In this document: piece by piece, positions 2,708 to 38,427 of the stretch
How the letters are laid out: every line of letters starts with the position of its first letter
How positions within the stretch are numbered: position 1 is the stretch's first letter
Assembly: GCA_944385995.1 (NCBI GenBank)
Contig: CALWZL010000012.1
Coordinates: 1-43,076 of the forward strand
Direction of reading: 5' to 3'
Source of the DNA: an uncultured Faecalibacterium sp.
GTDB taxonomy: Bacteria > Bacillota > Clostridia > Oscillospirales > Ruminococcaceae
Length of the DNA stretch: 43,076 nucleotides
Made by a program: the position numbers and the translations under genes
Notes under the pieces: model-generated
What the model saw: the letters and a program-made list of their open reading frames with translations, nothing else
Told to the model about the DNA's origin: nothing
The model's database searches: none

Positions 2708-2759
2708 TCCACACTGCCCTGACCAAAAAGTCAAATCAGTTCAGCTGAGGAGGTGTCCC

Positions 2760-2870
2760 ATGAAAAAAGCAGCTGTCTGGATTGCAGTAGATCTATCAGC
2801 CAGCTGCGTTTTCGCACACAAATCTATTGGCATCTTTCTGACCGCCGCAGATAGGAGGCATTCGATATGA
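2760..2870 (+). CDS. Possible 36-residue small protein or decayed leader
   Basis: An ATG at 2760 follows a strong GAGGAGG site with good spacing and opens 36 codons whose stop overlaps the next gene's ATG by 4 bases (ATGA). The product starts MKKAAVWIAV, like a signal-peptide beginning, but is then not convincingly hydrophobic. It could be a translated coupling peptide for the downstream gene, or the remains of a lipoprotein gene. Its existence is inferred from the ribosome binding site and the overlap only. Confidence 0.4.
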   Translation: MKKAAVWIAVDLSASCVFAHKSIGIFLTAADRRHSI

Positions 2871-3274
2871 AAAACAACAAATCACTTGTGATCGGGATAG
2901 CAGCAGTCCTATTGATCCTGACCGTTTCTTTTTTGGTTGGAACTGGATTTTGTAAGCGGACGGATGCGATTTTAACCGGTTATTCTGTTTCGAAGGACGG
3001 CACAGAAATCACTTTAGAAGCTTCGGTTCAGTCCTCCATGGGGTATATCAGAGGGTTCAAAGATGATGGCGGCGGTATAAAGCCGCACTATCTGACTTTT
3101 TATGCAACATTCGGTGGATTGAACAGCTCATTTGGAGCTAAAAACGCGTTTGTGCTGGAAGTCCATGAAGATGATCGTGAGATTTATTTCAACCGCGCCG
3201 ACGGGGGATACGAACTTGTTTTGCAAAAGAATACGGAAACGGGCATATGGGAAGAGCCCAATACACAAAGGTAA
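2867..3274 (+). CDS. Secreted or membrane-anchored small protein, unknown function
   Basis: 135 residues, start at 2867 with AGGAGG about 10 bases upstream. A positively charged N-terminus (MKNNK) is followed by a hydrophobic segment at about residues 7-27, fitting an uncleaved anchor or signal peptide; there is no clear lipobox. The rest is a mixed beta-type extracytoplasmic domain with several glycines and aromatic residues. I do not recognise a family. It overlaps the small frame at 2760 by 4 bases, which suggests translational coupling. Downstream, 3275-3391 holds no supported gene. Confidence 0.65.
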   Translation: MKNNKSLVIGIAAVLLILTVSFLVGTGFCKRTDAILTGYSVSKDGTEITLEASVQSSMGYIRGFKDDGGGIKPHYLTFYATFGGLNSSFGAKNAFVLEVHEDDREIYFNRADGGYELVLQKNTETGIWEEPNTQR

Positions 3275-3391
3275 CATAAAACAAAAGCGCATCTCCTGTG
3301 GACAAAAAGAATCTTACCGCTCTGGCGGCAGCAGAACATCCTGCATGATCCTTTGCTTGGCAAGCACCATCGAATCAGATTGGAGCGCCTT

Positions 3392-3649
3392 ATGAAGCAA
3401 TGGACTTTTGGAAAACAGATCGGCATGGGGATGATTCTGCTGTTTGCCAGCGGCATCCTTGCCGCTGTGCTGCACAACAGCATTTTTCTCAATCTGGCCT
3501 GGATTCTCTACGGCCTACTGTTTGTGATCCATCCCGTCTACCCGGAACAGGCTAAGTTCCGCTACAGCGAAGAAGGTGCCCAAAAGATCGCCCGCATGGC
3601 CGGCCTTATCTGCATCGCCATTGGACTGATTACGGAATTTGGAGTATAA
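3392..3649 (+). CDS. Small two-helix membrane protein (possibly DUF6199-like)
   Basis: 85 residues from the ATG at 3392, with a weak GGAG about 8 bases upstream; an in-frame ATG at 3353 is less well placed. The protein has hydrophobic segments at about residues 10-45 and again at 70-85, separated by a polar stretch that includes PVYPEQAKFRYSEEG. The layout of a short loop with an S/E-rich turn before a final glycine-containing helix resembles small DUF6199-type proteins, but this is a weak resemblance. One base separates its stop from the next ATG (3651), so the two are almost certainly co-transcribed. Confidence 0.6.
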   Translation: MKQWTFGKQIGMGMILLFASGILAAVLHNSIFLNLAWILYGLLFVIHPVYPEQAKFRYSEEGAQKIARMAGLICIAIGLITEFGV

Positions 3650-3650
3650 G

Positions 3651-4085
3651 ATGAAAAAGATTTTTAAAAGTCTCCCTCGCCTTCTGGGCCAGATGGCCAT
3701 TGTAGCGGCTGTACTGATTGGTTTTCAGGTTGTGACGGGCGGTATGTGGCTTTTCGGACTGCCCGAACTAGACCAGGTGGAATCGGTCAGCATTGCCTAT
3801 CCGCAGGTTACAGAGGAAGTAAAAATTGTGACCGGCGAGGAGGACAAGGAACTGGCCCTGAAACTCACCGGCTTTCTCAAATACAATCTGTTCCAGAAGG
3901 CTGCGGACGGCCAGCAGCCGCTGATTATCATCACCTACCACCTGCAGGACGGCACCGATCGGAACATCGCCGCCAATGGGACCACCGTCTGGTGGAAGGA
4001 CAAAGCCTATGCCCTCAAGGACCCGGACATCTTTGTCAATCTAACCGAAGGCCTTTTCTTTCTGGCAGAGGTACAGACCAGATAA
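3651..4085 (+). CDS. Membrane-anchored DUF5301-like protein
   Basis: 144 residues. The N-terminus (MKKIFK then a hydrophobic stretch to about residue 32) looks like a signal anchor with no lipobox cysteine. The outer domain begins with LPELDQVESVSIAY and contains a short beta/alpha unit that ends in WWKDKAYAL and a helix. This order (leader, LP..L..V..I, helix, strand pair with an aromatic turn) is like DUF5301-type extracytoplasmic proteins. The lipoprotein gene at 5217 has a similar start (LPFEPADLDAVEMF), so the two may be distant paralogues. No function is known. Confidence 0.6.
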   Translation: MKKIFKSLPRLLGQMAIVAAVLIGFQVVTGGMWLFGLPELDQVESVSIAYPQVTEEVKIVTGEEDKELALKLTGFLKYNLFQKAADGQQPLIIITYHLQDGTDRNIAANGTTVWWKDKAYALKDPDIFVNLTEGLFFLAEVQTR

Positions 4086-4122
4086 AAGCTGATTCAAAAT
4101 TTCAGAAAGAAGCGTTTGTAGG

Positions 4123-4641
4123 ATGAAAAAGAATGTAATCTCTCTGATTGCAGCAGCAGCCCTGCTGCTGGCCGGCCTGACGGCCTGCAAAGCCAAAACG
4201 CCCCAGGATCTTGCATCGGAAGCCCTGAGCCTGGACCTTTCAGCCGGCAGCGTAGTTTCTTCTTATGACACCCACAGCGGCAATGGCGACGGAACATCCT
4301 GCATTGTTCTTTCCTTCCAGGACGATTCCGTTTTGGAGCAGATTCATGCCAGCGATGCCTGGCATCCTCTCCCGGTTGACCAGACCACCCAGGTCCTTGT
4401 CTATGGCTTCTCGAAGGAAACCGGTGATGCCTCCTGGCAGATCGGCCCTTTTCTGACGGATGACAGCGGGAATCCACTGGTGCCGGAGGTTCAGAACGGA
4501 TACTATGTTCTTCTGGACCGGCAGGCCGAAGATGGCAAAGCCCCTGGGTCTGACATCCTGGACCGTGGGTCCTTCAACTTTACCTTTGGCCTCTATGACA
4601 CCGACACAGACACCCTTTACTGCTGCGAGCTGGACACCTGA
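4123..4641 (+). CDS. Putative lipoprotein, unknown function
   Basis: 172 residues with a clear lipoprotein signal: MKKN, a hydrophobic core, and lipobox LTAC with the acylated cysteine at residue 22. The mature part is rich in Asp, Ser and Gly and probably a beta-type domain exposed outside the membrane. No family was recognised. It starts 37 bases after the preceding gene and is followed after 13 bases by a small membrane protein gene, fitting one transcript for 3392-4945. Confidence 0.7.
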   Translation: MKKNVISLIAAAALLLAGLTACKAKTPQDLASEALSLDLSAGSVVSSYDTHSGNGDGTSCIVLSFQDDSVLEQIHASDAWHPLPVDQTTQVLVYGFSKETGDASWQIGPFLTDDSGNPLVPEVQNGYYVLLDRQAEDGKAPGSDILDRGSFNFTFGLYDTDTDTLYCCELDT

Positions 4642-4654
4642 GAGGAAACTTGAT

Positions 4655-4945
4655 ATGAACCAGAAGATATCCAGAGCACTGGAAGTTCTCATAGAATCCA
4701 TCTATTACCTTATCCTGAGTTATGCGCTGACCAACATGGTGCTGCTGTTTTGGCGGCACTGGCTTTTCATCCTCTTTTTTGCCTCGGAGTGCTGGCTGAT
4801 GGAGCGCTACTCGAAAAGGATTCAGGTATTGACTGGAAGCAAAGTCTTGTCTGCAGTTGTATGGATTGTCTGCTTTACGATTCATCTGGGAATTGTTTAT
4901 TTCTTTGGCCGCGTTGTGGGGGAGATTCTGCCGTTTTCCGCATAA
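4655..4945 (+). CDS. Small membrane protein, unknown function
   Basis: 96 residues from the ATG at 4655, preceded by GAGAGGAAA as ribosome binding site. Two or three hydrophobic segments (about residues 12-33, 36-48 and 65-90) are separated by a charged stretch, ERYSKRIQ. It resembles small accessory membrane proteins rather than a transporter. No motif or family was recognised. It lies just upstream of the DUF4367 remnant. Confidence 0.6.
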   Translation: MNQKISRALEVLIESIYYLILSYALTNMVLLFWRHWLFILFFASECWLMERYSKRIQVLTGSKVLSAVVWIVCFTIHLGIVYFFGRVVGEILPFSA

Positions 4946-4990
4946 GCGCTGAACCCCGCAGCAGTTTGCAGGGGTCCGGGAGGTTATGGA

Positions 4991-5186
4991 ATGATCGTCT
5001 ATCTGCAAATAATCGACACAAACGGTTTCGGTGAACGGACAGAATGCCGATTTCCACCTGGAAAGCGACCCGGAATCTGCCAACGCCCTGGTCTGGCTCT
5101 CGGCCTCCGGCGATACCATCTACTGCCTCACCGCTCCCCTGCCGGCATCCACACTGATTCAGATTGCGGAAAGCATCCCCGCTTGA
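4991..5186 (+). pseudogene. Decayed C-terminal fragment of a DUF4367-type protein
   Basis: From 5013 to 5186 one frame reads without stops to a TGA. It encodes a tail ending in LVWLSASGDTIYCLTAPLP and then LIQIAESIPA. This matches the usual end of DUF4367 domains, with a tryptophan or aromatic strand, a short hairpin and a final L..IAESI helix. The frame has a stop at 5010-5012. The frame starting at the ATG at 4991 (MIVYLQIIDT) looks like the preceding strand, so a frameshift near 5015-5027 probably separates the two pieces. No ribosome binding site or signal peptide remains. Intact DUF4367 proteins are usually membrane-bound anti-sigma-like or secreted proteins. Confidence 0.5.
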
Positions 5187-5216
5187 TTTCACTGAAACAC
5201 AAAGGAGGTTATGACC

Positions 5217-5678
5217 ATGAAAAAACGATTATTGGCGCTGGCTGTTATCCTGGGGCTTCTTCTAAGCCTCTCCCTGGCCAGCTGCGCCCGGACGGTGTAC
5301 ATCGAACTGCCCTTTGAACCGGCAGACCTGGACGCCGTTGAGATGTTCCGTTTTCAGAATCTGGCAGAAGCTGAGAAAAAGGTTATCACTGATCCTGCGG
5401 ACGTGAAAGACCTATGCGACCTGCTGGAAAGCATTTCACTGAAGGACAAGAAAACCGAACCTGTTGCCGGCGGCTCTGTGACCAGCTTCCGGTTCCATTG
5501 CGCCGACGGCACGACCTATGAAGTTATTTATTCCGCCATCGCCGTGAAATCCGGGCGGATCAAAATAACCGGCTGGGAAACGGACTATTTCACCTCCGCC
5601 GACCTGGGAGCCTGCTGGAACAACTACGACTACCCCGTCACAGACGCAGCTGAGAGCGAGCTGCCGGCGCTCTACTGA
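5217..5678 (+). CDS. Putative lipoprotein, DUF5301-like
   Basis: 153 residues from the ATG at 5217, chosen over the ATG at 5211 because AAAGGAGG at 5201-5208 is 8 bases from it. The signal peptide ends in a lipobox (LASC, cysteine at about residue 22). The mature domain begins with an LP...L..V pattern like the protein at 3651, followed by VKDLCDLLESI and a beta-rich end. A role outside the membrane is inferred from the lipobox only. The gene follows the DUF4367 remnant by 30 bases and precedes a run of three very small membrane proteins. Confidence 0.7.
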   Translation: MKKRLLALAVILGLLLSLSLASCARTVYIELPFEPADLDAVEMFRFQNLAEAEKKVITDPADVKDLCDLLESISLKDKKTEPVAGGSVTSFRFHCADGTTYEVIYSAIAVKSGRIKITGWETDYFTSADLGACWNNYDYPVTDAAESELPALY

Positions 5679-5732
5679 GCTGCCCGGTGCTGCAAAAAGC
5701 GGTCTATCCTTTCCCTGCAAGGAGGAAACACG

Positions 5733-5957
5733 ATGAAGAAACTGCTCTTTGGAATGATGCTGTTTTGTTCCGGTTCCCTTTCAGCCGCCATGCTGTTGGC
5801 CGGTTCCATGGCCAATGATTGGACGCTGAATGGCCAGTCCTCTGCCCTCTGGAATATCTCCCGGTACGGCCTCCTGCCTGCCCTGTACATCTTCCTCGGG
5901 CTGGCCGTTCTAGGACTGGTGATTGCTGTATGGGGACTGGTTGACCCTGAAAAATGA
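5733..5957 (+). CDS. Small two-helix membrane protein A
   Basis: 74 residues with an AAGGAGG site 8 bases upstream of the ATG. It begins MKKLLFGMMLF and has hydrophobic segments at about residues 4-25 and 45-70, ending AVWGLVDPEK. The beginning and end are shared in pattern with the 52-residue protein at 6186 (MKKMIFGIAL ... AVWGFIEKE). The two are probably diverged copies. Confidence 0.65.
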   Translation: MKKLLFGMMLFCSGSLSAAMLLAGSMANDWTLNGQSSALWNISRYGLLPALYIFLGLAVLGLVIAVWGLVDPEK

Positions 5958-6023
5958 ACTGACACCATTGCTTGTGGCGGCCTTGCAACGCCAGGGAAAC
6001 AAAATCAAGGGAACGTGTACTTG

Positions 6024-6167
6024 ATGAATAGCATCAAAATTGAGTTATTGGGAATCGGCATCATTCTTTTGGGCATCGCTTTGAGTACCAGTCATTTTTG
6101 GGCTTATACACTGGGCACGATTGGATTTTGCGTCATTGCAGCTGGATGCTTTTGGAAAAATTCATAA
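6024..6167 (+). CDS. Small membrane protein B (47 residues)
   Basis: A 48-codon frame from the ATG at 6024 encodes a hydrophobic protein with two short membrane segments and a GIGIILLGIAL start. It lies between two similar very small genes, and AAGGGAA lies 10 or so bases upstream. The amino-acid composition and its position in a row of like genes support it; no family is known. Confidence 0.5.
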   Translation: MNSIKIELLGIGIILLGIALSTSHFWAYTLGTIGFCVIAAGCFWKNS

Positions 6168-6185
6168 ACCCTTGGAGGAAAACCC

Positions 6186-6344
6186 ATGAAAAAAATGATC
6201 TTTGGTATTGCCCTGATCTTGTTTGGGTTCAGCATGGCTTATATTTCGGCACAGGCGCAGCGGGCTATCATGCAGCCCGTATCGCTGCTGGCCGTATTTG
6301 CCGGGCTGCTGTTCGCAGTTTGGGGATTTATCGAAAAAGAGTAA
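6186..6344 (+). CDS. Small two-helix membrane protein C (52 residues)
   Basis: A 53-codon frame from the ATG at 6186 with GGAGG eight bases upstream. The protein starts MKKMIFGIALILFGFS and ends LLFAVWGFIEKE, matching the ends of the protein at 5733. It is the last gene of the small-gene cluster and is followed by a terminator. Function unknown. Confidence 0.6.
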   Translation: MKKMIFGIALILFGFSMAYISAQAQRAIMQPVSLLAVFAGLLFAVWGFIEKE

Positions 6345-6377
6345 GGCCGTTCCTTCGCCTTTAAAAGGGAATGGTAA

Positions 6378-6420
6378 AAAGCCCAATGGACTGCTTGAGC
6401 CAAGTTCATTGGGCTTTCTT
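6378..6420 (+). terminator. Rho-independent terminator of the small-gene cluster
   Basis: AGCCCAATG (6380-6388) pairs with CATTGGGCT near 6407-6415 and is followed by TTTCTT on the plus strand. A-rich bases on the left side allow some function on the minus strand too. Confidence 0.8.
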
Positions 6421-6428
6421 GGTATAAC

Positions 6429-6462
6429 GAAAAAGCGGCTCTGCCTGCGCAAAGCCGCTCTA
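6429..6462 (-). terminator. Rho-independent terminator of the ABC exporter operon
   Basis: AGCGGCT (6434-6440) pairs with AGCCGCT (6453-6459). On the minus strand the hairpin is followed by TTTTTCG. It lies 10 bases after the permease stop. Confidence 0.75.
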
Positions 6463-6471
6463 ACAGATGAT

Positions 6472-8598
6472 TTAACGTATTCTCAAGATCCTGCACACCT
6501 TACGGCGGGTCAGGCGGTAAACGCCATACAGCACGGCAGACAACACCGCCATCACGGCGATGCAGGTACCTATACCGGCCCTTTCCCCTGGTGTAAACTG
6601 GTTGTCATTGAAGTAAAGGATCATTCCATAAAAGGCACTGATCACCGTTGTTCCCACCACAGCAGGCACCAGAAAGACCCGGGAAATTTGCCCCCGCACT
6701 GTCTGGAACAGGTAGGCGTTGGGTGCGCCCAGATGCCGCAGATCATCGTATACCCTGGCATTGGTCACGGCAATGGTCATGCAGCGGGTGAAAGCAATCA
6801 CAAGCACCGCTGCAAAGCAGATCAAGGCAATGAACACAAACAGCATCAGAAAAACGGCCATGGTGGTCACAAAATCGTTTTGGTCCAGAACCCGGAACTG
6901 GGGCATATAAAGCCAGTAGTTTCGGAAATCCGATGTGTCGCACTGGTCGTAATCCACCACTGGAAGATCATACGCCTTCAAACATTCCGGATCATCATAG
7001 TCATAGCTACCCTTCTCTGCAATTTGCAATTGCCGGATCACAGGGTCCCAGGCGTCGAAAACTTCCACTTCCGGGCTGGCACGACGCACCATTTCGTGGA
7101 ACAAAGCATCTGCAAAGGGATAACTGGACTGGACATCCGCTACATTGAAACAGACGTAGGTCTGCTTCCAGTAGTCGGTCAGGCCATTGGTAATGGCTGC
7201 GTAATCCCCGTCATCCAGCACATAACAGCCAAGCAGCATGGTATACTGCAGGGGCTCGACCGGAGTAACCTTTAGGCTCTGCCCGGTCACCATATTGGTG
7301 ACAATGGTTACATTGCCGCCTGACATATAGCTGCTGCCCCCGTCATCATCCAGTACATTGGCGCAGGTACCCGGGGCCAGATCCACCGCCTGACCCGTCA
7401 GGGCATTCCATGCCGACTCAGAGAAAAAGGTCCCGCCGGAAGCAATCTCACTGTACTCGGTGGTATAGGTGACACCCAAAACACCATTGTCCTGTTCCAC
7501 CGACACCATGCCATCGCCGCCCAAAGAGGCTGCCTCTGCCTGGGCCCAGGAAGTAATCTCCACATTGTAGTCCTGGGCCATGGATTCCACTTCCCTTTGC
7601 CCTATCTGCTCCTGGTCCTTGCGCATGTGCCAGGCAAAATCCACCGGACGGCTGGAGAAACTGTAGGAAGAATTGCTGCTCATGGTAGGGGTATAAAAGG
7701 CTGCAAAATAAGCTCCAGCAATCAGGAGTGTCATTACCAGCATGGTCCGCACCGTCTGCCTGCCCTGGAATTTCATCATGGAAGTGGTAATCAGATTCTG
7801 ATAGGCCTTTCCTTTGCGCCACCCATTCACCACCGTGTGGAGCAGAATCATATAGACGCCGATCAGCGCTGGCAGATAGAAGATACTGCTCACGATGGCC
7901 GGCGGATACCAATGGGTCACATTGATAAAAAAGCTCGGCATCATGTAACCGGCCAGTCCTCCCGCAACCGCCAGCAGGATGCCTGCCCATCCATACCAGC
8001 GCTTTACCTCATGAATCGGCTCGGAACGGTGGGATTCCTGCACCACGTCCATGATGTTGGTGGTGCGGACAGCCCGGCCGCCCATCCAGAACAGGGCTGC
8101 CACCACATAGGCCGCAAAAAGCAGGGACAGCAAATAGGCTGCCGGGGCAAAGGTCAGGGCCATCTCCTGGGAGTCCACTAGAAACAGCCGGAACAGCTGC
8201 CAGACGCCCCAGGCCAGCGGGCCCCCCAGAGCAGCTCCCGCTGCACAGGATGCCAGGGACAGCACCGCCAGTTCCTTTCCCATTTCGGCCCACAGCTGCC
8301 GTCGGGCGGCTCCCAGGGCCAGGAAAAGACCGGTTTCCCGGGATTTCTGCCGGAAGAACAGCCCCGCCGCATAGGCCGTAAAGACGGCGCATCCCACCAC
8401 CGCCAGCACAAAAATCATCATCACCTGTTTGCGGGAATCGCCGCCCTCGGGCAGCACCGACAGAATGGTGGGGGAACGCATCATACAGCTGTAAGCTGTC
8501 ATCAGCAAAACCGAAAAGAAGCTGCATCCTGCCAGCAGAGCGTAACGGCTCTTGTTTTTGCGGCGCAGCACCCTGCATACCTCTGAAAAATGCCGCAT
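6472..8598 (-). CDS. FtsX-type ABC transporter permease
   Basis: 708 residues from the ATG at 8598, chosen for GAGGTG seven bases upstream; an in-frame GTG at 8607 is possible. One membrane helix near residues 20-42 is followed by a first FtsX block at about 60-175, then further helices to about 310. A large extracytoplasmic domain spans roughly 315-590, and the last block of three helices is at about 590-700. This matches the BceB/YtrF group of macrolide- or peptide-type exporters in length and layout. The gene overlaps or abuts its ATPase gene (stop at 8609) and forms the second gene of the pair. BceB-type proteins normally sense and remove antimicrobial peptides; the substrate here is unknown. 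Confidence 0.85.
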   Translation of the reverse strand: MRHFSEVCRVLRRKNKSRYALLAGCSFFSVLLMTAYSCMMRSPTILSVLPEGGDSRKQVMMIFVLAVVGCAVFTAYAAGLFFRQKSRETGLFLALGAARRQLWAEMGKELAVLSLASCAAGAALGGPLAWGVWQLFRLFLVDSQEMALTFAPAAYLLSLLFAAYVVAALFWMGGRAVRTTNIMDVVQESHRSEPIHEVKRWYGWAGILLAVAGGLAGYMMPSFFINVTHWYPPAIVSSIFYLPALIGVYMILLHTVVNGWRKGKAYQNLITTSMMKFQGRQTVRTMLVMTLLIAGAYFAAFYTPTMSSNSSYSFSSRPVDFAWHMRKDQEQIGQREVESMAQDYNVEITSWAQAEAASLGGDGMVSVEQDNGVLGVTYTTEYSEIASGGTFFSESAWNALTGQAVDLAPGTCANVLDDDGGSSYMSGGNVTIVTNMVTGQSLKVTPVEPLQYTMLLGCYVLDDGDYAAITNGLTDYWKQTYVCFNVADVQSSYPFADALFHEMVRRASPEVEVFDAWDPVIRQLQIAEKGSYDYDDPECLKAYDLPVVDYDQCDTSDFRNYWLYMPQFRVLDQNDFVTTMAVFLMLFVFIALICFAAVLVIAFTRCMTIAVTNARVYDDLRHLGAPNAYLFQTVRGQISRVFLVPAVVGTTVISAFYGMILYFNDNQFTPGERAGIGTCIAVMAVLSAVLYGVYRLTRRKVCRILRIR

Positions 8599-29409: not shown

Positions 29410-30294
29410 TCAGAGGAACAGGGCAATCACAATCTGCATCCCCACCCCCAGGACGGCCCCCGCCGCCCAGGTCAGGCCGGTGATGAACAGGTTCTGCTTC
29501 CAGGAGGGGTTGGCACGCCACAGCACTGCCAGGCCCACCCCGGCGCCGGTACACAGGCCCGCCACCAGGCTGGAAAACCGCAGGGCCCCTTCCAGATACA
29601 TCTGGGTCAGCAGGACGCTGGCGGCACAGTTGGGGATCAGCCCCACCGCCGCCGCAAACACCGGCTGGAAAAAGCCCATCCGGCCCAAAGCGTCCGAGAT
29701 GACTTCCTCCCTGATTCCCTCCACCAGCAGACCGAAGGCCAGGCTGAACAGGAAGATGAAGAGGAAAATCTCGATGGTGTGGCGCAGAGCCGCCCGCCAC
29801 AGGGGGTGCTGATGACCTCCCTCTTCGTGGGTTTCGTGACAGTCCACCTCGTCGGCGTGGCCGGTGTAGCCGCCCCGGAGAGACCTGGGCAGCAGGGGCC
29901 GCAGGACAAAATCCAGCACAAAGCCAACGACCACGGCGTAGATCACCTTGATGGCCAGCAGGATCGCCAGTTTATCCCAGTAGTCCGGCATGGACACCAG
30001 CAGGGGGATGGCCTCGTCACTGGTGGCCAGATAGACCGCCATCAGGGTGCCCAGGGTGATAACCCGGGAAGCGTAAAAGTTGGAGGCTACCGCCGAGAAA
30101 CCGCACTGGGGCACACAGCCCAGCACCGCCCCCGGCACAGCTCCCCAGCGGCCGCCGCTGGCCAGCAGCTGCTCGATCCGCTCGCCGTGGCGGCGCTCCA
30201 CATATTCGATGAACAGATAAGCTGCAAACAGGAAAGGCAGCATTTTGAGGGTATCGTGGAGGGATTCCTCCAGCACTTCCAAGAACAATTCCAT
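29410..30294 (-). CDS. Putative heavy-metal/manganese exporter (ArsP_2-like)
   Basis: 294 residues with about eight membrane helices in two similar halves. The first half has [17 protein letters not shown] and [16 protein letters not shown]. The second has [17 protein letters not shown] and [15 protein letters not shown]. These paired G..P.C...A motifs mark the family named putative manganese transporter or ArsP_2-type 10-TM exporter. A loop between the halves (about residues 144-163) is rich in His, Asp, Glu and Cys and could bind metal. It lies downstream of a CorA-family gene but has its own promoter flanked by TTGCAA pairs. The direction and metal are inferred from family naming. Confidence 0.75.
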
Positions 30295-30354
30295 AACGTC
30301 TCCCGCAGGGCCTAGGGCCCCTTATCTCAAAGCCTGCCGCAATTCACAAGCAGG

Positions 30355-30430
30355 TTGCAATTTTGCAAGCGAGAGACAGTATACACGCTTGTCCTCAAAA
30401 ACGCAAGAGAAATTTGCAAAAAGATTGCAA
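30355..30430. promoter_or_regulatory. Four TTGCAA motifs flanking a promoter
   Basis: TTGCAA occurs at 30355, 30363, 30414 and 30425. One pair lies just after the expected transcription start and one pair just upstream of the -35, with 8- and 11-base steps. Likely sites for a metal-responsive repressor. Confidence 0.5.
30378..30406 (-). promoter_or_regulatory. Promoter of the metal exporter gene
   Basis: On the minus strand, TTGCGT (complement of 30401-30406) and TATACT (complement of 30378-30383) with a 17-base spacer. The leader is about 75 bases; it can form a stem between GCCTGC and GCAGG near 30332-30354. No known riboswitch motif was seen. Confidence 0.65.
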
Positions 30431-30459
30431 TTTTTGTTTTATTCCGGGAGAGACCGGCC

Positions 30460-31380
30460 TCACCAGAACTTTTTCTTTTTCATGATATACAGGCACAGCA
30501 GCACAATCAGGGCGCTGGCCGCGATCACCGCCGGATAGCCGTATTTCCAGGTCAGCTCGGGCATGCCGGAAAAGTTCATCCCGTACCACCCCGCCACCAG
30601 GGACAGGGGCAGGAAGATGGTGGTGACAATGGTCAGAATCTTCATGATCCGGTTCTGACGCAGGTCCATCTCGGCCTGAAACATCTCCCGCAGCTGGAGG
30701 CCGTACTCCCGCAGGGCTTTGGCTTCCCCCAGCAGGCGGCCCATCCGCTTTTCCACCCGGTGGAACATCTGGGCCTCGGGGTCTGAAAGGGAGCCGTTTT
30801 CCTGCAGCTCGCACACCAGCTCATCCATCTGGGTGTAATATTTGATCCAGCGGGAAATCTCCTTCCGCAGCACCATCATGCCCCCGTTGAAGCCCTCCAG
30901 CTGGCCATTGGTGACCTGGTCCTCCATCCGGGACAGCTGGTCCCCCAGCAGTTCCAGGTGGCGCAGGTCCTTGTCCACCAGTAGGGCCAGGAAGCCGCAG
31001 AAAAAGCCGGCGGGGGTCCAGCTGCGGCGGGGGTCCTCCTTGTGGAGGCGCTGCACCATCGACCGGGCGGTGCCGGTGTCGTCGCATAGCACCACCAGCC
31101 CCGGGGCCAGCAGGTAGCCGAAGGCGATGGTCTCCCCGCTTTTGGCCTGCCGGGGGGTGACGATGGTGCCGTTCAGGTAGCCCCGCCGCACCTCGGCCTT
31201 GCAGATCTGGGCGTCCCGGGCCAGGGGGGTGTGGCAGACCATATCCCCCTTGGCTTCCTGGGCCGGCTGGCGGGCCAGCTCCTCCGAGGTCAGCACCAGC
31301 AGGGTGCCGCCGGATGTCTCCCCCTTTTGGGACGGGGCCGGCTGGGGGGCCAGCCCATTGGAAAGCTGATACTGATACAT
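30460..31380 (-). CDS. CorA-family divalent metal transporter
   Basis: 306 residues. A long soluble N-terminal part with helices rich in Glu and Arg is followed by two membrane helices at the C-terminus. The GMN selectivity motif is at about 267-269 in WYGMNF, and a basic KKKK tail ends the chain. This is the classic CorA layout, carrying Mg2+ or related ions as a pentamer. The first 40 residues are rich in Pro, Gly and Gln, which is unusual. GGGGAGGAG precedes the ATG and a promoter is visible at 31440-31468. The neighbour downstream is a metal exporter, so the pair may balance Mg/Mn. Confidence 0.85.
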   Translation of the reverse strand: MYQYQLSNGLAPQPAPSQKGETSGGTLLVLTSEELARQPAQEAKGDMVCHTPLARDAQICKAEVRRGYLNGTIVTPRQAKSGETIAFGYLLAPGLVVLCDDTGTARSMVQRLHKEDPRRSWTPAGFFCGFLALLVDKDLRHLELLGDQLSRMEDQVTNGQLEGFNGGMMVLRKEISRWIKYYTQMDELVCELQENGSLSDPEAQMFHRVEKRMGRLLGEAKALREYGLQLREMFQAEMDLRQNRIMKILTIVTTIFLPLSLVAGWYGMNFSGMPELTWKYGYPAVIAASALIVLLCLYIMKKKKFW

Positions 31381-31516: not shown

Positions 31517-32413
31517 TCAATCGGTGCGCTCTTTCAGCAGGGTGGTTTTCAGCTGGCGGGCGGCGGCGCTCATGGGGCGCTGGCGGTCATACACCAGGCA
31601 GATCTGCCGCGGGGGGATCTCCTCCCGCAGATGAATCTGGACAATCTGCCGCTTCTGGATGGCCTCCCGGGCCATGGTTTCGGGGATGAAGGCCAGCCCC
31701 AGGTCGCACTGCACCAGGGGGAGGATCTGGTCGGCGGTGGCCGCCTCGGTGTCGGGGGCCAGCTCCAGCCCCTGAGACAAAAACAGCTGATGGTAAAACC
31801 GATAGGTCATGGTCTCCTTGCCCAGGCTGATGAAGGAGTAGTGCTCCAGGTCAGAGAGGGTCAGCTCCTGGCTGGCCAGGGCGGTGTAGGCCAGGCCCCC
31901 CACCAGGATCTCCCGGAAGCTCTGGAGGTGCACCTCCTGCAGAGGCGGCTGGGCGTCGGTGGGGGTGGTCACCACCGCAAAGTCCACCTCCCCGCTGCCC
32001 ACCGACCGTACCGCCTGGGGGGTGGAGTGGTTGTACATCTTGAGCCGGATGCCGGGGTATTCGGTGTGGAAGGCCTTGAGCTTTTCCAGCAGGTAGATGT
32101 TCAGGGCTGTCTCGCTGGCGCCGATGGAGACGCTGCCGTGTTCCAGGCTGGCGCTGGCGGCCAGCTCCTCCTCCGCCATCTGCACCTGGGCCATGGCCGC
32201 CGCAATGTGGCCGTAGAGGTGCTCCCCCTCCGGGGTCAGCTGGACGCCGCGGTTGGTGCGGATGAAGAGGGTGCAGTGGGTCTCCTGCTCCAGGCAGTTC
32301 ATGGCACGGGTGACGTTGGGCTGGCTGTTGCCCATGGCGTGGGCCGCCCGGGTGAAGTTCTGGTACTTGGCCACATAATAGAAAATCTTGTAGTATTCAA
32401 AGTTGACGTTCAT
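31517..32413 (-). CDS. LysR-family transcriptional regulator
   Basis: 298 residues from the ATG at 32413, preceded by GGAGG; an in-frame start six codons upstream is less likely. The winged helix-turn-helix at about 1-60 contains [20 protein letters not shown] and [15 protein letters not shown]. The effector domain spans about 88-295. It is divergent from the argG-purA-pyrB-pyrI operon and separated from it by 127 bases holding an inverted repeat (32438-32458), so it most likely controls that operon and itself. The ligand is unknown; aspartate, a nucleotide-pathway or an arginine-pathway metabolite would fit. Confidence 0.9.
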
Positions 32414-32437
32414 CTGCCCGCCTCCTGACATATCATT

Positions 32438-32458
32438 TTGTTATCATCACTATAACAA
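32438..32458. promoter_or_regulatory. LysR-type operator
   Basis: TTGTTAT (32438-32444) and ATAACAA (32452-32458) form a perfect 7-bp inverted repeat around 7 bases. It contains the T-N11-A form of LysR boxes, 9 bases upstream of the argG -35. Confidence 0.6.
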
Positions 32459-32466
32459 CAATGATT

Positions 32467-32495
32467 TTTACATATCTCAGCAAAGACAGTATAAT
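32467..32495 (+). promoter_or_regulatory. Promoter of the argG operon
   Basis: TTTACA (32467-32472) and a perfect TATAAT (32490-32495) with a 17-base spacer, about 45 bases before the argG ATG. Confidence 0.8.
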
Positions 32496-32540
32496 CAATC
32501 CCGAGCTCAAACACAAGCAGAAAAGGAGCAGTGGATCACC

Positions 32541-33773
32541 ATGTCTGAAATCAAAAAAGTGGTCCTGGCCTATTCCGGCGGCCTGGACACCTCCATCATC
32601 ATCCCCTGGCTGAAAGAGCACTACAACAACTGCGAAGTGATCGCCGTCTGCGGCAACATCGGCCAGACCGGCGAGCTGGACGGGCTGGAAGCCCGGGCCA
32701 GGGCCTCGGGGGCCAGCAAGCTGTACATCGAGGATTTGACCGACGAATTTGTGGACGACTACGTCATCCCCACCATGCAGGCCGGCGCCGACTATGAGGG
32801 CTACCTGCTGGGCACCAGCTTTGCCCGTCCTGTGCTGGCCAAGCGGGTGGTGGAGATCGCCAAAGCCGAGGGGGCCGACGCGGTCTGCCACGGCAGCACC
32901 GGCAAGGGCAACGACCAGGTCCGGTTTGAGCTGGCCATCATGCACTTTGACCCCCGCATGAAGATCATCACCCCCTGGCGGGAGTGGGACATCCAGAGCC
33001 GGGATGAGGAAATCGACTACGCCGAGGCCCACCACATCCCCCTGAAAATCACCCGGGAGACCAACTACTCCAAAGACAAAAACCTGTGGCATCTAAGTCA
33101 CGAGGGGCTAGACCTGGAAGACCCGGGCAACGAGCCCCAGTATGAAAAGCAGGGTTTTCTGGAGCTGAGCGTCTCCCCTCTCAAAGCCCCCGACACCCCC
33201 GAATATCTGGAGCTGACCTTTGAGAAGGGCGTCCCCACCGCTCTGGACGGCAAACCCATGAAGGCCTCGGCCATCATCGTCGCCCTCAACCAGATGGGCG
33301 GCCGCAACGGCATCGGCCTGTACGACGTGGTGGAAAACCGTCTGGTGGGGATGAAGAGCCGCGGGGTTTATGAAACCCCCGGCGGCACCATCCTCTACCA
33401 CGCCCATCAGGTGCTGGAAACCCTGACCCTGGACAAGCCCACCGCCCACAAAAAGCGGGAGCTGGCCATCACCTTCGGCGAGCTGGTCTACGACGGCCAG
33501 TGGTTCAGCCCCCTGCGCAAGGCTCTTTCCGCCTTTGTCACCGAGACCCAGCAGCACGTCACCGGCAAGGTGCGGCTGAAACTGTACAAGGGCAACATCT
33601 TCAACGCCGGGGTCTGGTCCCCCTACTCCCTCTACAGCCAGGAGATCGCCACCTTTGACGCCGGCGGCAGCTACTGCCAGTCGGACGCCACCGGCTTCAT
33701 CCAGCTCTACGGCCTGCCCACCCGGGTTCAGGCTGTGGTGGACCAGAAGAACGAGGAGGACGCATCATGCTGA
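32541..33773 (+). CDS. argG: Argininosuccinate synthase
   Basis: 410 residues from the ATG at 32541; AAAAGGAGC precedes it. It joins citrulline and L-aspartate using ATP, the step before ArgH in arginine synthesis. The ATP-pyrophosphatase motif AYSGGLDTS is at 10-18. The citrulline/aspartate-site segments [23 protein letters not shown]-like (here SRDEEIDYA) and [20 protein letters not shown] are conserved. No other arg gene is in the window. It is the first gene of an operon where argG, purA and pyrB all use aspartate, and its end overlaps purA by 7 bases. Confidence 0.97.
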
Positions 33774-35067
33774 CGGCTGTCACCGGCCTCAACTGGGGCG
33801 ACGAGGGCAAGGGCCGGGTCATTGACCTGCTGGCCCAGCAGGCCGACGTGGTGGTGCGCTACCAGGGCGGCAACAACGCCGGCCATACCGTGGTCACCGG
33901 CGACGGCACCTTTGTACTCAACCTGCTGCCCTCGGGGATCCTCCACCCCGGGGTCACCTGCATCCTGGGGGACGGGATGGTGGTGGATCTGGACCACCTG
34001 ACCCGGGAGATCCAGGACATCCGGGACCGCGGGGTCAGCGTCACCCCCAACCACCTGAAACTGTCGGCCCGGGCCACCATCTCAATGCCCTGGCACCGGA
34101 TCCAGGACGGGCTGGAGGAGGACCGGCTGGCCCGCAAGGGCGCCGCCTTCGGCTCCACCCGCCGGGGCATCGCCTACGCCTACAGCGACAAATACCGGAA
34201 AAAGACCCTCCGGCTGGGGGACCTGCTGCGGCTGGACACCGAACCGGTGCGCACCCGGCTGAAAACCATGCTGGAGGCCAAAAACCTGGAGCTGGGGGGC
34301 TGCTATTACCAGGAGCCCATGTCCTACCCCGCCCTGCTGGCCTGGTGCCAGGAAAAGGCGGAGGCCTTTGAGCCCTACATCTGCGACACCGGCCGCTATC
34401 TGCGGGATGCACTGGCAGCGGGCAAACGGGTGCTGCTGGAGGCCCAGCTGGGGGCCATGCGGGACATCGACTACGGCATCTTCCCCTACACTTCCAGCTC
34501 CTCCACCATCTCGGCCTATGGACCCATCGGCGCCGGCATCCCCGGCTGCCGGCTGGACCATGTGGTGGGGGTGCTGAAAGCCTACTCCACCTGTGTGGGG
34601 GCGGGGCCCTTCGCCGCCGAGCACGCCATGTCCGCCGCCTGGATGGACCAGCTGCGGGAGGCCGGGGCCGAGTACGGCGCTGCCACCGGCCGGCCCCGCC
34701 GGGTGGGCCCCTTTGACGCGGTGGCCAGCCGCTACGGCCTGGCCTGCCAGAACGCCGACCGGATCGCCCTCACCAAGCTGGATGTCCTCAGCGGGATGGA
34801 CCAGATCCTGGTCATCACCGCCTACCAGCAGGGGGCTGCGAGATCCGGGACTTTGACCCCTTCGACAGTCAGGAGGGCTGCCGGCCGGTGGTGGAGTTTC
34901 TGCCGGGCTGGCAGCAGGACCTGGCCGACTGCCGCAGCTGGGAGGACCTGCCCCAAAACGCAAAGGGCTACGTCACCGCCCTGGAACGACTGATCGGCCA
35001 CCCCATCCAGATGATCTCGGTGGGGCCTGAGCGGGACGCTTTCCTGACGAAAGGAGACTGGGCATGA
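33767..35067 (+). pseudogene. purA: Adenylosuccinate synthetase with a frameshift
   Basis: Encodes the enzyme that joins IMP and L-aspartate with GTP in AMP synthesis. WGDEGKGR (11-18), NNAGHT (36-41), the IMP loop STRRG and TKLDVLSGMDQ are intact. At the GGGGG run at 34831-34835 the frame changes. The original frame continues with unrelated residues to a stop at 34993. The frame one base off continues with CEIRDFDPF, then NAKGYVTALERLIG, and ends at [10 protein letters not shown], the proper PurA tail, stopping at 35065-35067. Adding one G would give a normal 433-residue protein. It is either a real mutation, a phase-variable G tract or a sequencing error. Confidence 0.92.
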
Positions 35068-36011
35068 GACATCTGATTGAACCGGCCGACTTCACCGACG
35101 CCGAGACCCTCGCCGTGCTGGACCTGGCCGACCGGATCGGGGCAGACCCCGCCCCCTACGCCCACGCCGCCGAGGGCCGGCGGCTGGCCACCTTGTTCTA
35201 TGAGCCCAGCACCCGGACCCGCCTTTCCTTTGAATCCGCCATGCTGCGGCTGGGAGGCCGGACCCTGGGCTTCTCGGGGGCGGAACAGTCCAGCGCCTCC
35301 AAGGGGGAGACGGTGGCCGACACCGCCCGGGTGGTGAGCTGCTACGCCGACATCATCGCCATGCGCCACCCCAAGGAGGGCGCGCCGCTGCGGGCCTCCA
35401 TGCACGCCGCCGTCCCGGTGATCAACGCCGGGGACGGCGGCCACAACCACCCCACCCAGACCCTCATTGACCTGATGACCATCCGCCAGCGCAAGGGCAG
35501 GCTGGACCATCTGACGGTGGGCTTCTGCGGGGATTTGAAGTTTGGCCGCACCGTCCACTCGCTGGTGAACCGGCTGGTGCGGTTTCCCGGCAACCGGTTT
35601 GTGTTCATCTCCCCCGAGGAGCTGCGGGTGCCCTCCTATCTGATCGAGGACACCCTGGCCCCCGCCGGGGCCGACTATCAGGAGACAACCTCCCTGGAGC
35701 AGGCCCTGCCCCGTCTAGATGTGCTCTACATGACCCGGGTCCAGAAGGAGCGGTTCTTCAACGAGGAGGACTACATCCGGCTGAAGGGGCTGTATGTGCT
35801 GGACCCTGAGAAAATGAAGCTGGCCCCGGCGGACATGCCTGTGCTCCATCCCCTGCCCCGGGTGGGGGAGATCGACCCCGCCCTGGACGCCGACCCCCGG
35901 GCCGCCTACTTTGACCAGGTGCAGAACGGGGTGTATGTGCGGATGGCCCTGATCCTGGCCCTGCTGGGCATCCCCGACCCCGTCACAGGAAAGAAGGTGC
36001 TGGCATGCTGA
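35064..36011 (+). CDS. pyrB: Aspartate carbamoyltransferase catalytic subunit
   Basis: 315 residues. It joins carbamoyl phosphate and L-aspartate, the committed step of pyrimidine synthesis. The carbamoyl-phosphate motif [13 protein letters not shown] is at 45-57, the SASKGE loop at 77-82 supplies a serine and lysine from the next subunit, and [12 protein letters not shown] (121-132) and HPLPRVGEI near 265 complete the site. Its ATG overlaps the restored purA stop by 4 bases and its end overlaps pyrI by 7 bases. The allosteric partner PyrI is present, so a CTP/ATP-controlled holoenzyme is likely. Confidence 0.97.
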
Positions 36012-36448
36012 ACGTGGAATCCATCCGGGACGGTGTGGTCATCGACCACATCACCGCCGGCCGGGGCATGGAGCTCTATCGCCTGCTGCATCTGGAAGGC
36101 CAGCAGCAGCCGGTGGCCCTGCTGCAATACGTCCGCAGCGAAAAATACGGCCGGAAAGACCTAATCAAGATCGAGGGGCTCCAGCAGCCCGGCCGGCTGG
36201 ACATCCTGGGGTATCTGGACCCCCGGATCACCCTGATTGTGATCCAGGACGGGCAGGTGGTCAACAAGTACCGCCCCACCCCGCCCAAGGTGCTGAAAAA
36301 CGTGGTGCGGTGCCGCAATCCCCGGTGCATCACCAGCCAGGAGCCGGACTGCGAACAGATCTTCCGGCTCTCCCCCGGCGGCAAATACCGCTGCATCTAC
36401 TGCAACCAGGAAATCTCGGTGAAAAACAGCGCCGACTTTGTCCTTTGA
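36005..36448 (+). CDS. pyrI: Aspartate carbamoyltransferase regulatory subunit
   Basis: 147 residues, near the usual 150. The N-terminal allosteric domain (about 1-95) includes the nucleotide-site segment ending at [13 protein letters not shown]. The C-terminal zinc domain has Cys103, Cys108, Cys130 and Cys133, the four ligands that hold it to PyrB. An extra Cys116 is present. It overlaps pyrB by 7 bases, so the two subunits are translationally coupled. It should give feedback control of aspartate use for pyrimidines. Confidence 0.96.
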
Positions 36449-36470
36449 CCCAACCAATGGAGGCATAACC

Positions 36471-37091
36471 ATGCAAAAACCCATCCTCTGCATCGGCCGC
36501 AGCTACGGCAGCGGCGGCCGGGAAATCGGGGAAAAGCTGGCCCAAAGGCTGGCAGTCCCCTGCTATGACAAGCTGCTGATCGAAAAGGCCACCCATGCCA
36601 GCGGCATCGACGCGGAAGTCCTGTCCGAGAACGACGAGCGGCTGCCCAGCTTTATGCTGTCGGGCAACTCCTTCGCCGACACCGCGTCCATGATGCGCTC
36701 CTTCTACTCCGAGACCCAGCAGGTGAACGACGCGGTTCACCAAACCATCCTGCGGCTGGCAGGCCAGGGGCCCTGCGTCTTTGTGGGCCGGTGCGCCTCG
36801 GCAGTGCTGAAGGGGGCAAACACCCTCTCGGTCTTTGTCTACGCCGACCCCGCAGACTGCGTGGCCCGAGTGATGGAGCGCAACCACATCGGCGAAAAAG
36901 AGGCCCAGCAGCGGATCCGCAAAATCAACCGGATGCGCCGCCAGTACTACGATTTTTACTCCGAGACCCTCTGGGGCCAGCCCGAGAGCTATGACCTGAT
37001 GATCTCCTCCAGCAAGTACGGCATCGACGGCTGCGTCGAGACCATTTTGCAGAGTGTAACCAGTTGGGAGGCGCTGCATTACCATGAATAA
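36471..37091 (+). CDS. Cytidylate kinase-like protein
   Basis: 206 residues from the ATG at 36471, preceded by GGAGG. The P-loop-like segment GRSYGSGGREIG is at 8-19, and FVGRCASAVL and the lid-type arginine region NHIGEKEAQQRIRKINRMRR follow. This is the cytidylate-kinase-like family (AAA_33/PF13189-type) and is distinct from canonical Cmk. The substrate is not proven, but the place right after pyrB-pyrI supports a nucleotide role. It starts 22 bases after pyrI and overlaps the MATE gene by 8 bases. Confidence 0.85.
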   Translation: MQKPILCIGRSYGSGGREIGEKLAQRLAVPCYDKLLIEKATHASGIDAEVLSENDERLPSFMLSGNSFADTASMMRSFYSETQQVNDAVHQTILRLAGQGPCVFVGRCASAVLKGANTLSVFVYADPADCVARVMERNHIGEKEAQQRIRKINRMRRQYYDFYSETLWGQPESYDLMISSSKYGIDGCVETILQSVTSWEALHYHE

Positions 37092-38427
37092 GGATTTGAC
37101 TGTGGGCAAGCCCCAGACCGTGCTGTGGGCCTTCTGCCTGCCCCTCTTCGGCAGCATTGTGTTCCAGCAGCTGTACAACATCGCCGACAGCCTGGTGGCG
37201 GGCAAGTTTGTGGGCGAGGACGCCCTGGCCGCCGTGGGCAACAGCTATGAGATCACCCTGATCTTCATCGCTTTCGCCTTTGGCTGCAACATCGGCAGCT
37301 CGGTCATTGTCTCCCAGTTCTTCGGCGCCAAAAAGTACGCCGAGGTGAAAACCGCCGCCCGCACCGCCATCATCAGCAGCACCGTTCTGTGCATCCTGCT
37401 AATGCTGGCGGGCGGCCTGGGCAGCGAGGCCCTGCTCCACGCCATCAACACCCCCGAAAACGTCTTTGCAGACTCTTTGCTCTACCTGAAGATCTACGTC
37501 TGGGGCCTGCCCTTCGTCTTTCTGTACAACATCGCCACCGGCATTTTCTCGGCCCTGGGGGACAGCAAGACCCCCTTCTATTTCCTGGCGGCCTCCTCCA
37601 CCTCCAACATCGCGGTGGATATCCTCTTTGTCACCGCCTTTCAAATGGGTGTGGCCGGCGTGGCCTGGGCCACCTTCCTGTGCCAGGGGGTCAGCTGCAT
37701 CCTGGCTCTGATCTTTGTGTTCCGCCGGCTGGGAACCATCCCCCACGAGGGCAAGGGCGAATTCTTCTCCTTCCCCATCCTGAAAAAGATCGCCGTTATC
37801 GCCATCCCCAGCATCCTCCAGCAGAGCTTCATCTCGGTGGGCAACATTATGATTCAGGGCATCATCAACGGGTTCGGTTCCAGCGTCATGGCCGGCTACT
37901 CCGCTTCCATCAAGCTGAACAACCTGGTCATTACCTCCTTCACCACCCTGGGCAACGGCATCTCCAACTACACCGCCCAGAACATCGGCGCCCAGAAGCT
38001 GCCCCGGGTCCGGGAAGGCTTCTCCGCCGGGCTGCGGATGGTCTGGCTTCTCTGCATTCCTTTGGTGCTTCTGTACATACTGGGCGGCAACATCCTGGTG
38101 GGCTTCTTTATGAATGACCCCTCCCCCACCGCCCTGTCCACCGGCGTCATGATTCTCCGAATTCTCTCCCCCTTCTACTTTGTGGTGTCCGCCAAGCTGG
38201 TGGCCGACGGCATCCTCCGGGGCGCTGGCCTGATGAACCGCTTCATGATCGCCACCTTTACCGACCTGATCGTCCGCGTTCTGCTGGCCTTCACCCTCTC
38301 CCGGACTTCTCTGGGGGCCACCGCTATCTGGTGCGCATGGCCCATCGGCTGGACCATCGCCTGTGTGCTGTCCATCCTCTTTTACCGGACCGGTCCCTGG
38401 CTCCGCAAGGTGGAACAGGAAGCCTGA
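37084..38427 (+). CDS. MATE-family efflux transporter
   Basis: 447 residues with twelve membrane helices in two halves, typical of MATE proteins. Family segments include FCLPLFGSIVFQQLYNIAD near the start, GATGIFSALGDSKTP-like (here ATGIFSALGDSKTP) and the second-half PSILQQSFISVGN. MATE proteins export drugs or metabolites using a Na+ or H+ gradient. It closes the argG-purA-pyrB-pyrI operon and overlaps the kinase-like gene, so it is likely co-expressed. A role in exporting a nucleotide-pathway compound is possible but unproven. A terminator lies downstream at 38554. Confidence 0.93.
   Translation: MNKDLTVGKPQTVLWAFCLPLFGSIVFQQLYNIADSLVAGKFVGEDALAAVGNSYEITLIFIAFAFGCNIGSSVIVSQFFGAKKYAEVKTAARTAIISSTVLCILLMLAGGLGSEALLHAINTPENVFADSLLYLKIYVWGLPFVFLYNIATGIFSALGDSKTPFYFLAASSTSNIAVDILFVTAFQMGVAGVAWATFLCQGVSCILALIFVFRRLGTIPHEGKGEFFSFPILKKIAVIAIPSILQQSFISVGNIMIQGIINGFGSSVMAGYSASIKLNNLVITSFTTLGNGISNYTAQNIGAQKLPRVREGFSAGLRMVWLLCIPLVLLYILGGNILVGFFMNDPSPTALSTGVMILRILSPFYFVVSAKLVADGILRGAGLMNRFMIATFTDLIVRVLLAFTLSRTSLGATAIWCAWPIGWTIACVLSILFYRTGPWLRKVEQEA

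Follow-up and report, generated by a model that had tools for sequence, protein, structure and literature searches.

Positions 31517–38427 of a 43,076-nucleotide contig from an uncultured Faecalibacterium sp. (CALWZL010000012.1, assembly GCA_944385995.1) carry a gene for a LysR-type regulator, here denoted LysR2, on the reverse strand and, divergent from it on the forward strand, the gene series argG-purA-pyrB-pyrI-Cytidylate_kin2-MATE, as deduced from the reading frames and family scans (Table 1). This entire contig, hereafter the window, comes from a genome assembled into 114 contigs (2.25 Mb, 88% complete). An earlier note, made from the sequence alone, had described argG, purA, pyrB and pyrI as a single run with overlaps of 7, 4 and 7 bases, preceded by a divergent LysR gene with a clear operator, and had interpreted it as a unit allocating aspartate to competing pathways. 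The overlaps were confirmed on the coordinates, and an ATATCA-type box, an inverted repeat and a promoter were located between LysR and argG at the position of predicted regulator binding. The gene order is real, but the run does not end with pyrI at 36448 and continues into the Cytidylate_kin2 and MATE genes, while the 4-base purA/pyrB overlap exists solely in a second reading frame of purA, which is not one open frame.

The window operon duplicates argG, purA and pyrB-pyrI, which also occur as separate housekeeping genes in the same genome. The host genome carries another argG, split over contigs C97 and C15 and adjoining an argH assigned by reading, a housekeeping purA on contig C1 with a product 62% identical to the window PurA, and a housekeeping pyrB-pyrI pair on contig C4 with a PyrB 70% identical to that of the window. 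Both domains of LysR2 score above their cut-offs (HTH_1, N-terminal, 67.6 bits; LysR substrate domain, C-terminal, 120.1 bits), and its start is probably at 32413 rather than 32431, to judge from the conserved start MNVNFEYY and the upstream AGGAGG. PyrI2 lies below the cut-offs of the NCBIfam PyrI models (151.5 versus 171 and 109.4 versus 148.6 bits).

The purA2 gene is broken. A frame of 408 amino acids begins at 33767 and its homology ceases near 34837; the final 75 PurA codons are found in another frame at 34840–35064 (Pfam E-value 1e-17), such that the PF00709 match covers residues 4–360 of the first frame with its last 59 matched residues in the second. The first frame scores 367.5 bits, under the curated cut-off of 402 for the adenylosuccinate synthase equivalog, because the gene is broken; orthologues in 12 Faecalibacterium genomes are frames of 433 amino acids. 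From the sequence, a real mutation and a one-base assembly error are both possible and indistinguishable, and programmed frameshifting is unsupported since reading of the break revealed none of the usual slippery heptamers in frame.

Table 1. Features of the window and of related loci (L) and genomes (G), under our working labels.
Location	Feature	Position	Strand	Remarks
Window	LysR2 regulator	31517..32413	-	298 aa; longest frame extends to 32431; PF00126 and PF03466
Window	LysR2 operator and promoter (predicted)	32430..32495	+	63 bits with Lachnospiraceae-trained matrix
Window	Inverted repeat TGTTAT-N7-ATAACA	32439..32457		
Window	TTTTTAC (-35)	32465..32471		18 bases before TATAAT
Window	TATAAT (-10)	32490..32495		
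Window	argG2, argininosuccinate synthase, second copy	32541..33773	+	NF001770, 569 bits, above cut-off of 334
Window	purA2, adenylosuccinate synthase, second copy	33767..35067	+	PF00709; frame broken near 34837
Window	pyrB2, aspartate carbamoyltransferase catalytic chain, second copy	35064..36011	+	TIGR00670, 328.6 bits, above cut-off of 237
Window	pyrI2, ATCase (aspartate carbamoyltransferase) regulatory chain, second copy	36005..36448	+	PF01948 and PF02748 above cut-off
Window	Cytidylate_kin2 family gene	36471..37091	+	PF13189, E-value 1e-45; starts 22 bases past pyrI
Window	MATE family exporter	37084..38427	+	PF01554; overlaps Cytidylate_kin2 gene
Window	ArsP_2-type heavy-metal exporter and CorA-type transporter genes	29410..31380		flank the locus
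L058-L062, L065, L067, L068, L194	3.8-kb cassette			different genome places; nearly identical between species
G356	purA-pyrB-pyrI			
G525	purA-pyrB-pyrI-DUF4866-ThrE			
G347	DUF4866-ThrE-purA			
G486	purA-DUF4866-ThrE			
G633	purA			frame split; neighbours DUF4866 and ThrE
G470	pyrB-pyrI			PyrI partial; YoaK behind LysR
G348	MATE			L071 is another contig of G348
G373, G629, G450, G741, G362, G507	DUF4866 with ThrE and/or YoaK			
G431	LysR2			without target
L013	Paralogous LysR with operator	5413..6303		
L015	Paralogous LysR with operator	4372..5289		
L157	Paralogous LysR with operator	7001..7903		
L224	Paralogous LysR with operator	7172..8062		
L225	Paralogous LysR with operator	6325..7266		
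L226	DUF4866 and YoaK/DUF1275 genes	4495..5942		OR846746, Listeria-labelled
L059	MetE-like methyltransferase gene	1370..3511		Faecalibacterium
L082	MetE-like methyltransferase gene	2713..4832		Lachnospiraceae

A common operator layout links the window operon to units elsewhere. It consists of an upstream box and a second, ATATCAA-like box, followed by TTTTTAC, 18 bases and TATAAT, and lies upstream of and over the -35 element. It was present in all 34 regions examined, which separate the first target from LysR2 or from a cassette gene and include several near duplicates, and five different genes come first behind it: purA2, argG2, pyrB2, DUF4866 and MATE. A matrix built from 16 Lachnospiraceae sites was scanned, at a threshold of at least 10 bits, over 1,757,125 bases gathered around system genes and 77 housekeeping purA loci, which do not constitute a random genome sample. 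All 43 matches fell at the system or at LysR paralogues: 17 in Lachnospiraceae (16 of them the training sites), the window, 19 Faecalibacterium loci (with L070 repeating L054), five paralogous LysR genes and one YoaK gene (L215). There was no match at the 77 housekeeping purA loci, the maximum in three shuffles of 238,499 bases was -9.6, and two Faecalibacterium sites scored below 10 bits (L056, 2.9; L058, 8.6).

A second, genus-specific pattern was searched with up to three mismatches in whole genomes of 31 Faecalibacterium, the window's included. It yielded 24 sites in 14 of the 31, and none for the reversed pattern; since the pattern was derived from part of its sites, some matches arise by construction, which does not apply to its absence elsewhere. 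The 14 are exactly the genomes encoding LysR2 at 89% identity or more. Ten sites lie between LysR2 and purA2 or argG2, two precede purA2 or argG2 without an adjacent LysR2, ten head DUF4866 cassettes, in several of which argG2 is missing or a remnant, and two stand by LysR2 alone. No match occurred in the window genome, nor at the DUF4866 gene of G007.

Five paralogous LysR genes with products 41–56% identical to LysR2 carry the same type of operator upstream (26–54 bits). The paralogue in L013 adjoins the housekeeping pyrB-pyrI pair; opposite the remaining ones stand ATP synthase genes, pckA or an aminotransferase-YoaK group. Judged by the motif they may form, with LysR2, a LysR subfamily sharing one operator type, and cross-talk between them is possible.

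By its own account, the interpretation in the earlier note would be refuted by a gene order confined to this strain. The order is not so confined: L071, a contig of a metagenome-assembled genome (MAG) labelled Pseudobutyrivibrio, carries argG2-purA2-pyrB2-pyrI2 in the same order; its first and last overlaps are 7 bases each, and the middle one is 4 or 10 bases according to which pyrB start is taken. Its proteins are 87% (ArgG), 78% (PyrB), 78% (PyrI) and, over the first 350 codons, 81% (PurA) identical to those of the window, and its PurA is 73% identical to that of G028. This conservation of order, together with the occurrence of the operator layout in two families, implies that the gene run is more than a product of chance. 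Moreover, the shared L-aspartate substrate remarked on earlier is a real theme, as in both families the biosynthetic enzymes that keep recurring behind the LysR2 operator are argG, purA and pyrB(-pyrI), all aspartate users.

Other units combine these enzymes with exporter-type genes, or lack the enzymes. A Lachnospiraceae MAG (L082) carries LysR2 divergent from DUF4866-ThrE-purA2, the 627-kb plasmid of Lachnospira eligens ATCC 27750 carries LysR divergent from DUF4866-ThrE-purA-pyrB, and a plasmid of Roseburia sp. 831b carries LysR divergent from DUF4866-ThrE. Orthologues of LysR2 were detected in 14 of 397 Lachnospiraceae genomes (E-values up to 1.1e-118), with two weaker matches (51–52%) falling outside the LysR2 clade. 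Half of the 14 have enzymes in their units (Table 1), six have the exporter/DUF4866 part only and one has neither; the units of G450 and G741 are near copies, with a broken DUF4866 gene in G741. The ThrE type occurs together with DUF4866 under the operator in L082, L150, L155, L156 and several Lachnospiraceae loci. Genes for MATE in L212 and YoaK in L215, both with predicted exporter roles, likewise lie under a LysR2-type operator, the former belonging to G348, being directly behind the operator and encoding a protein 77% identical to the window MATE. The ThrE-type protein carries both Pfam ThrE domains, PF06738 and PF12821, in one polypeptide; no solved relative was found by sequence at E-values up to 0.1. 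In a class-wide survey, 0 of 291 genomes yielded DUF4866, but the control genomes were also without a match, such that this is not evidence of absence. Separately, L226 carries a DUF4866 gene (34%) directly followed by a YoaK/DUF1275 gene (41%). Some of the LysR2 loci of Lachnospiraceae have this pair as well; the L226 stretch itself yielded no match to ThrE or LysR2.

Within Faecalibacterium, the PurA2 paralogue occurs at 74–76% identity in 12 of the 30 other genomes, each of which, like the window genome, also encodes the housekeeping PurA, and 30 genomes searched outside the genus had no PurA as close (best 60%). PyrB2 is present in 13 of the 31 genomes, the window's included. Six other genomes encode a full-length ArgG2, G010 doing so twice; in G003 a copy is divided between contigs, and remnants persist in G026, G025, G016, G005 and G015. 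The window's own LysR2 is at 62% identity, against 89% or more in the 14 genomes mentioned above, among which are all 11 of the 31 that encode DUF4866. The core block of the genus is LysR2-(argG2)-purA2-pyrB2; pyrB2 is missing from G007, two genes separate purA2 from LysR2 in G003, and in G029 LysR2 lies far off. No PyrI2 was seen in the core blocks of the other Faecalibacterium genomes, and the Cytidylate_kin2 gene was not seen in the other LysR2 units. As a separate observation, G027 (1.9 Mb, 99% complete) gave no PurA or ArgG match at an E-value of 0.001 and one PyrB match, and is possibly a purine and arginine auxotroph.

In the trees, all PurA2 copies fall into a single clade (100/100) that is separate from the housekeeping PurA. 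The window PurA2 joins three Lachnospiraceae copies (98/93) and the other 12 Faecalibacterium copies constitute a group of their own (95/96), and these branchings are most simply explained if the window lineage made a separate acquisition. LysR2 is also a single clade, comprising 21 orthologues with that of the window (96/96), and mixes enzyme-type and exporter-type loci. Median dN/dS (nonsynonymous to synonymous substitution) ratios within the genus are low: 0.08 for PurA2, 0.08 for PyrB2, 0.10 for LysR2, 0.03 for ArgG2 and 0.08 for DUF4866, alongside 0.05 for the housekeeping PurA; for the window and L071 saturation of dS precluded a ratio. The median dS of DUF4866, 0.05 versus 0.42–0.66 for the other genes, appears to be a sign of recent spread.

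These ratios bear on two alternative explanations. The enzymes could be hitchhikers without a joint function, with selection acting on LysR2, the exporters and DUF4866; this would accommodate the six of 14 Lachnospiraceae loci that consist of the exporter/DUF4866 part alone, and the broken enzyme genes of the window, G015, G001, G016, G026 and G633, but it is hard to reconcile with purifying selection on PurA2, PyrB2 and ArgG2 and with these three enzymes recurring in different lineages, and we judge it improbable. Low dN/dS would be expected, as would the complete PyrB-PyrI pair kept in several loci, if LysR2 were to sense a shortage of nucleotides or arginine and to supply extra enzyme that escapes the normal control of the purine, pyrimidine and arginine pathways. 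Such a spare biosynthetic set would, however, leave unexplained both the exporter-type genes and DUF4866 under the operator and the choice of aspartate-using steps, and it seems to us an improbable solution.

The units are under purifying selection, move horizontally and often decay. When G025 was used as reference, matches were mostly confined to the block in all 11 comparisons and the surroundings differed. A second, unlinked cassette of 3.8 kb (ThrE, DUF4866, argG2) is found in Faecalibacterium genomes and, compared with that of G012, is 98–99% identical over the shared parts in six of seven genomes and 91% in G010, with mostly sharp ends. No recombinase is encoded inside the cassette, and a search for terminal repeats gave no convincing pair. 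The best ArgG on plasmids showed 71% identity, under the 85–87% of ArgG2. A phage origin was considered and discarded, the phage-collection record L150 reading as a Lachnospiraceae contig with nadA/nadB/nadC-like frames; a search of viral contigs yielded no DUF4866 relative, no ArgG match and one partial PyrB relative (67%).

Decay is evident in the window's own lineage, where the locus carries a lesion in each of the three genomes compared. In the near relatives G015 and G001 a damaged locus lies beside the same CorA and ArsP_2 genes. In G015 the start of LysR, the greater part of argG and the whole of purA are gone, with argG codon ~194 joined to pyrB codon 19. G001 retains no more than the end portions of LysR and MATE, plus a PurA match of 20 residues. 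The window copy is thus among the worst preserved, and there is about an even chance that the operon is a decaying relic in this lineage. The broken purA2 frame, the argG-pyrB fusion without PurA2 and the remnants between unchanged flanking genes point in this direction; on the other side, the LysR, argG, pyrB, pyrI and MATE genes of the window are open, its operator is strong at 63 bits and the purA break may be a one-base assembly error. A relic in this lineage is compatible with the explanation that we favour for the system as a whole.

That explanation, to which we assign a probability of roughly 0.4, is that the units form a mobile, LysR-switched regulon in which spare aspartate enzymes and predicted exporters sustain arginine, AMP and UMP synthesis in the presence of an aspartate-like antimetabolite. 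The anatomy matches a LysR activator whose target lies divergent from it. Loci with exporters alone suggest that the system serves primarily to remove something, and the spare enzymes beside exporters suggest that the removed compound acts at aspartate sites. LysR2 would bind the operator and activate the divergent target in response to an aspartate mimic, the ThrE-type, YoaK and MATE proteins would export the mimic, DUF4866 might act on it or aid its export, and the spare ArgG, PurA and PyrB-PyrI, through their dosage, through being controlled separately or through differences lying beyond the aspartate loop, would keep arginine, AMP and UMP production going when the mimic enters the cell. 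The step from anatomy to signal is inferred, and aspartate itself may be the signal. Aspartate analogues that act on purine synthesis include hadacidin and alanosine. A stronger formulation, namely immunity against an undescribed aspartate mimic through three exporter types, DUF4866 and inducible spares of three blocked enzymes, we advance tentatively.

The aspartate allocator proposed earlier is difficult to sustain, as the genes are second copies, mobile, and broken or lost in the window lineage, and the regulator and operator are common to exporter-type proteins; an inducible resistance or overflow response fits better than a central allocator. An overflow response could take the form of LysR2 sensing intracellular aspartate, raising three sinks and opening an exporter as a safety valve. 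The shared substrate and the operator in common with exporter-type genes are consistent with this, and LysR-exporter safety valves do exist (PMC11743413); but the sinks are costly, housekeeping copies occur in the same genomes, the enzymes are missing from seven of the 14 Lachnospiraceae LysR2 loci (six exporter/DUF4866 only, one solo), and the units are patchy, mobile and readily lost. On balance we consider it unlikely.

Several results weigh against the antimetabolite explanation. The aspartate loop AATGRPRR is identical in PurA2 and the housekeeping PurA1, PurA being the enzyme covered by the inhibitor-site comparison. An altered loop as a sign of drug resistance is thereby ruled out, and any resistance would have to operate via dosage, separate control or distant residues. 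The ThrE-type protein scores 24.8 bits where the NCBIfam ThrE model requires 550, so any substrate taken from the family name would be tentative, and the DUF4866 model (pLDDT 82) found no PDB match at an E-value of 0.001 or below (best 0.1). MATE is the sole exporter candidate in the window's unit, and the window genome has no DUF4866. The 14 Faecalibacterium genomes with LysR2 form one clade by housekeeping PurA, and their shared content therefore counts as one inheritance. This type of operator is also found ahead of LysR paralogues that neighbour aminotransferase genes, ATP synthase genes or pckA, and by itself it is therefore no mark of aspartate. Finally, we know of no aspartate-like gut toxin.

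Among known systems the nearest is SerR-SerE, in which a LysR regulator senses an amino acid and turns on its exporter (PMC11743413). As in SerR-SerE and LysG-LysE (PMC11743413; PMC5648196), the LysR2 system has a LysR gene adjoining an exporter gene, and an exporter gene stands under the operator in L150, L155 and L156 (DUF4866-ThrE) and in L212 (MATE). In the known pairs the regulator senses a compound that its exporter moves, as LysR2 may also do; the LysR2 system differs in being dispersed and mobile, with several exporter types, DUF4866 and three isozymes under one layout. ThrE family exporters (PMC8850433) have PF06738 and PF12821 in common with the LysR2-system protein, which lies far under the NCBIfam ThrE cut-off. 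Among the matches listed in the open-licence PMC literature, none described this regulon or the joining of biosynthetic isozymes, more than one exporter type and scattered mobile cassettes to a LysR-exporter pair. The pyrBI operon encodes aspartate transcarbamoylase. The window resembles it in that pyrI comes directly after pyrB and slightly overlaps it, and differs in that the pair lies behind a LysR operator, argG and purA and is the second in the genome.

Spare target enzymes are a general kind of antimetabolite resistance. The LysR2 system shares with this kind the second copies of essential enzymes, separate control, exporter-type genes and mobile units; targets are duplicated in that a housekeeping PurA accompanies PurA2 in the window genome and in 12 of 12 others, and housekeeping pyrB and argG are present in the window genome. 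It differs in that three targets are involved at once, the toxin is inferred and the inhibitor site of PurA2 is not altered. Exporter-based resistance to the antimetabolite thialysine has been reported for LysO (PMC8498466). If the antimetabolite explanation is true, an aspartate-like agent would be indicated in the gut, be it a weapon, a drug or a dietary compound, for which several commensals are prepared, LysR2 with its operator would provide a sensor for finding such a compound, and DUF4866 and YoaK would gain a context. Even if the units served aspartate partition instead, one operator layout in two families would tie three pathways together via their sole common substrate.

A paralogue fragment of the Cytidylate_kin2 gene lies near argH/argF in L014 (32%). 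The ArsP_2 and CorA genes that flank the window locus are retained in G001 and G015. Beside the cassette in both L059 and L082 there is a MetE-like methyltransferase gene with its own LysR, and in L211 a MetE-like frame is again accompanied by a LysR gene nearby.

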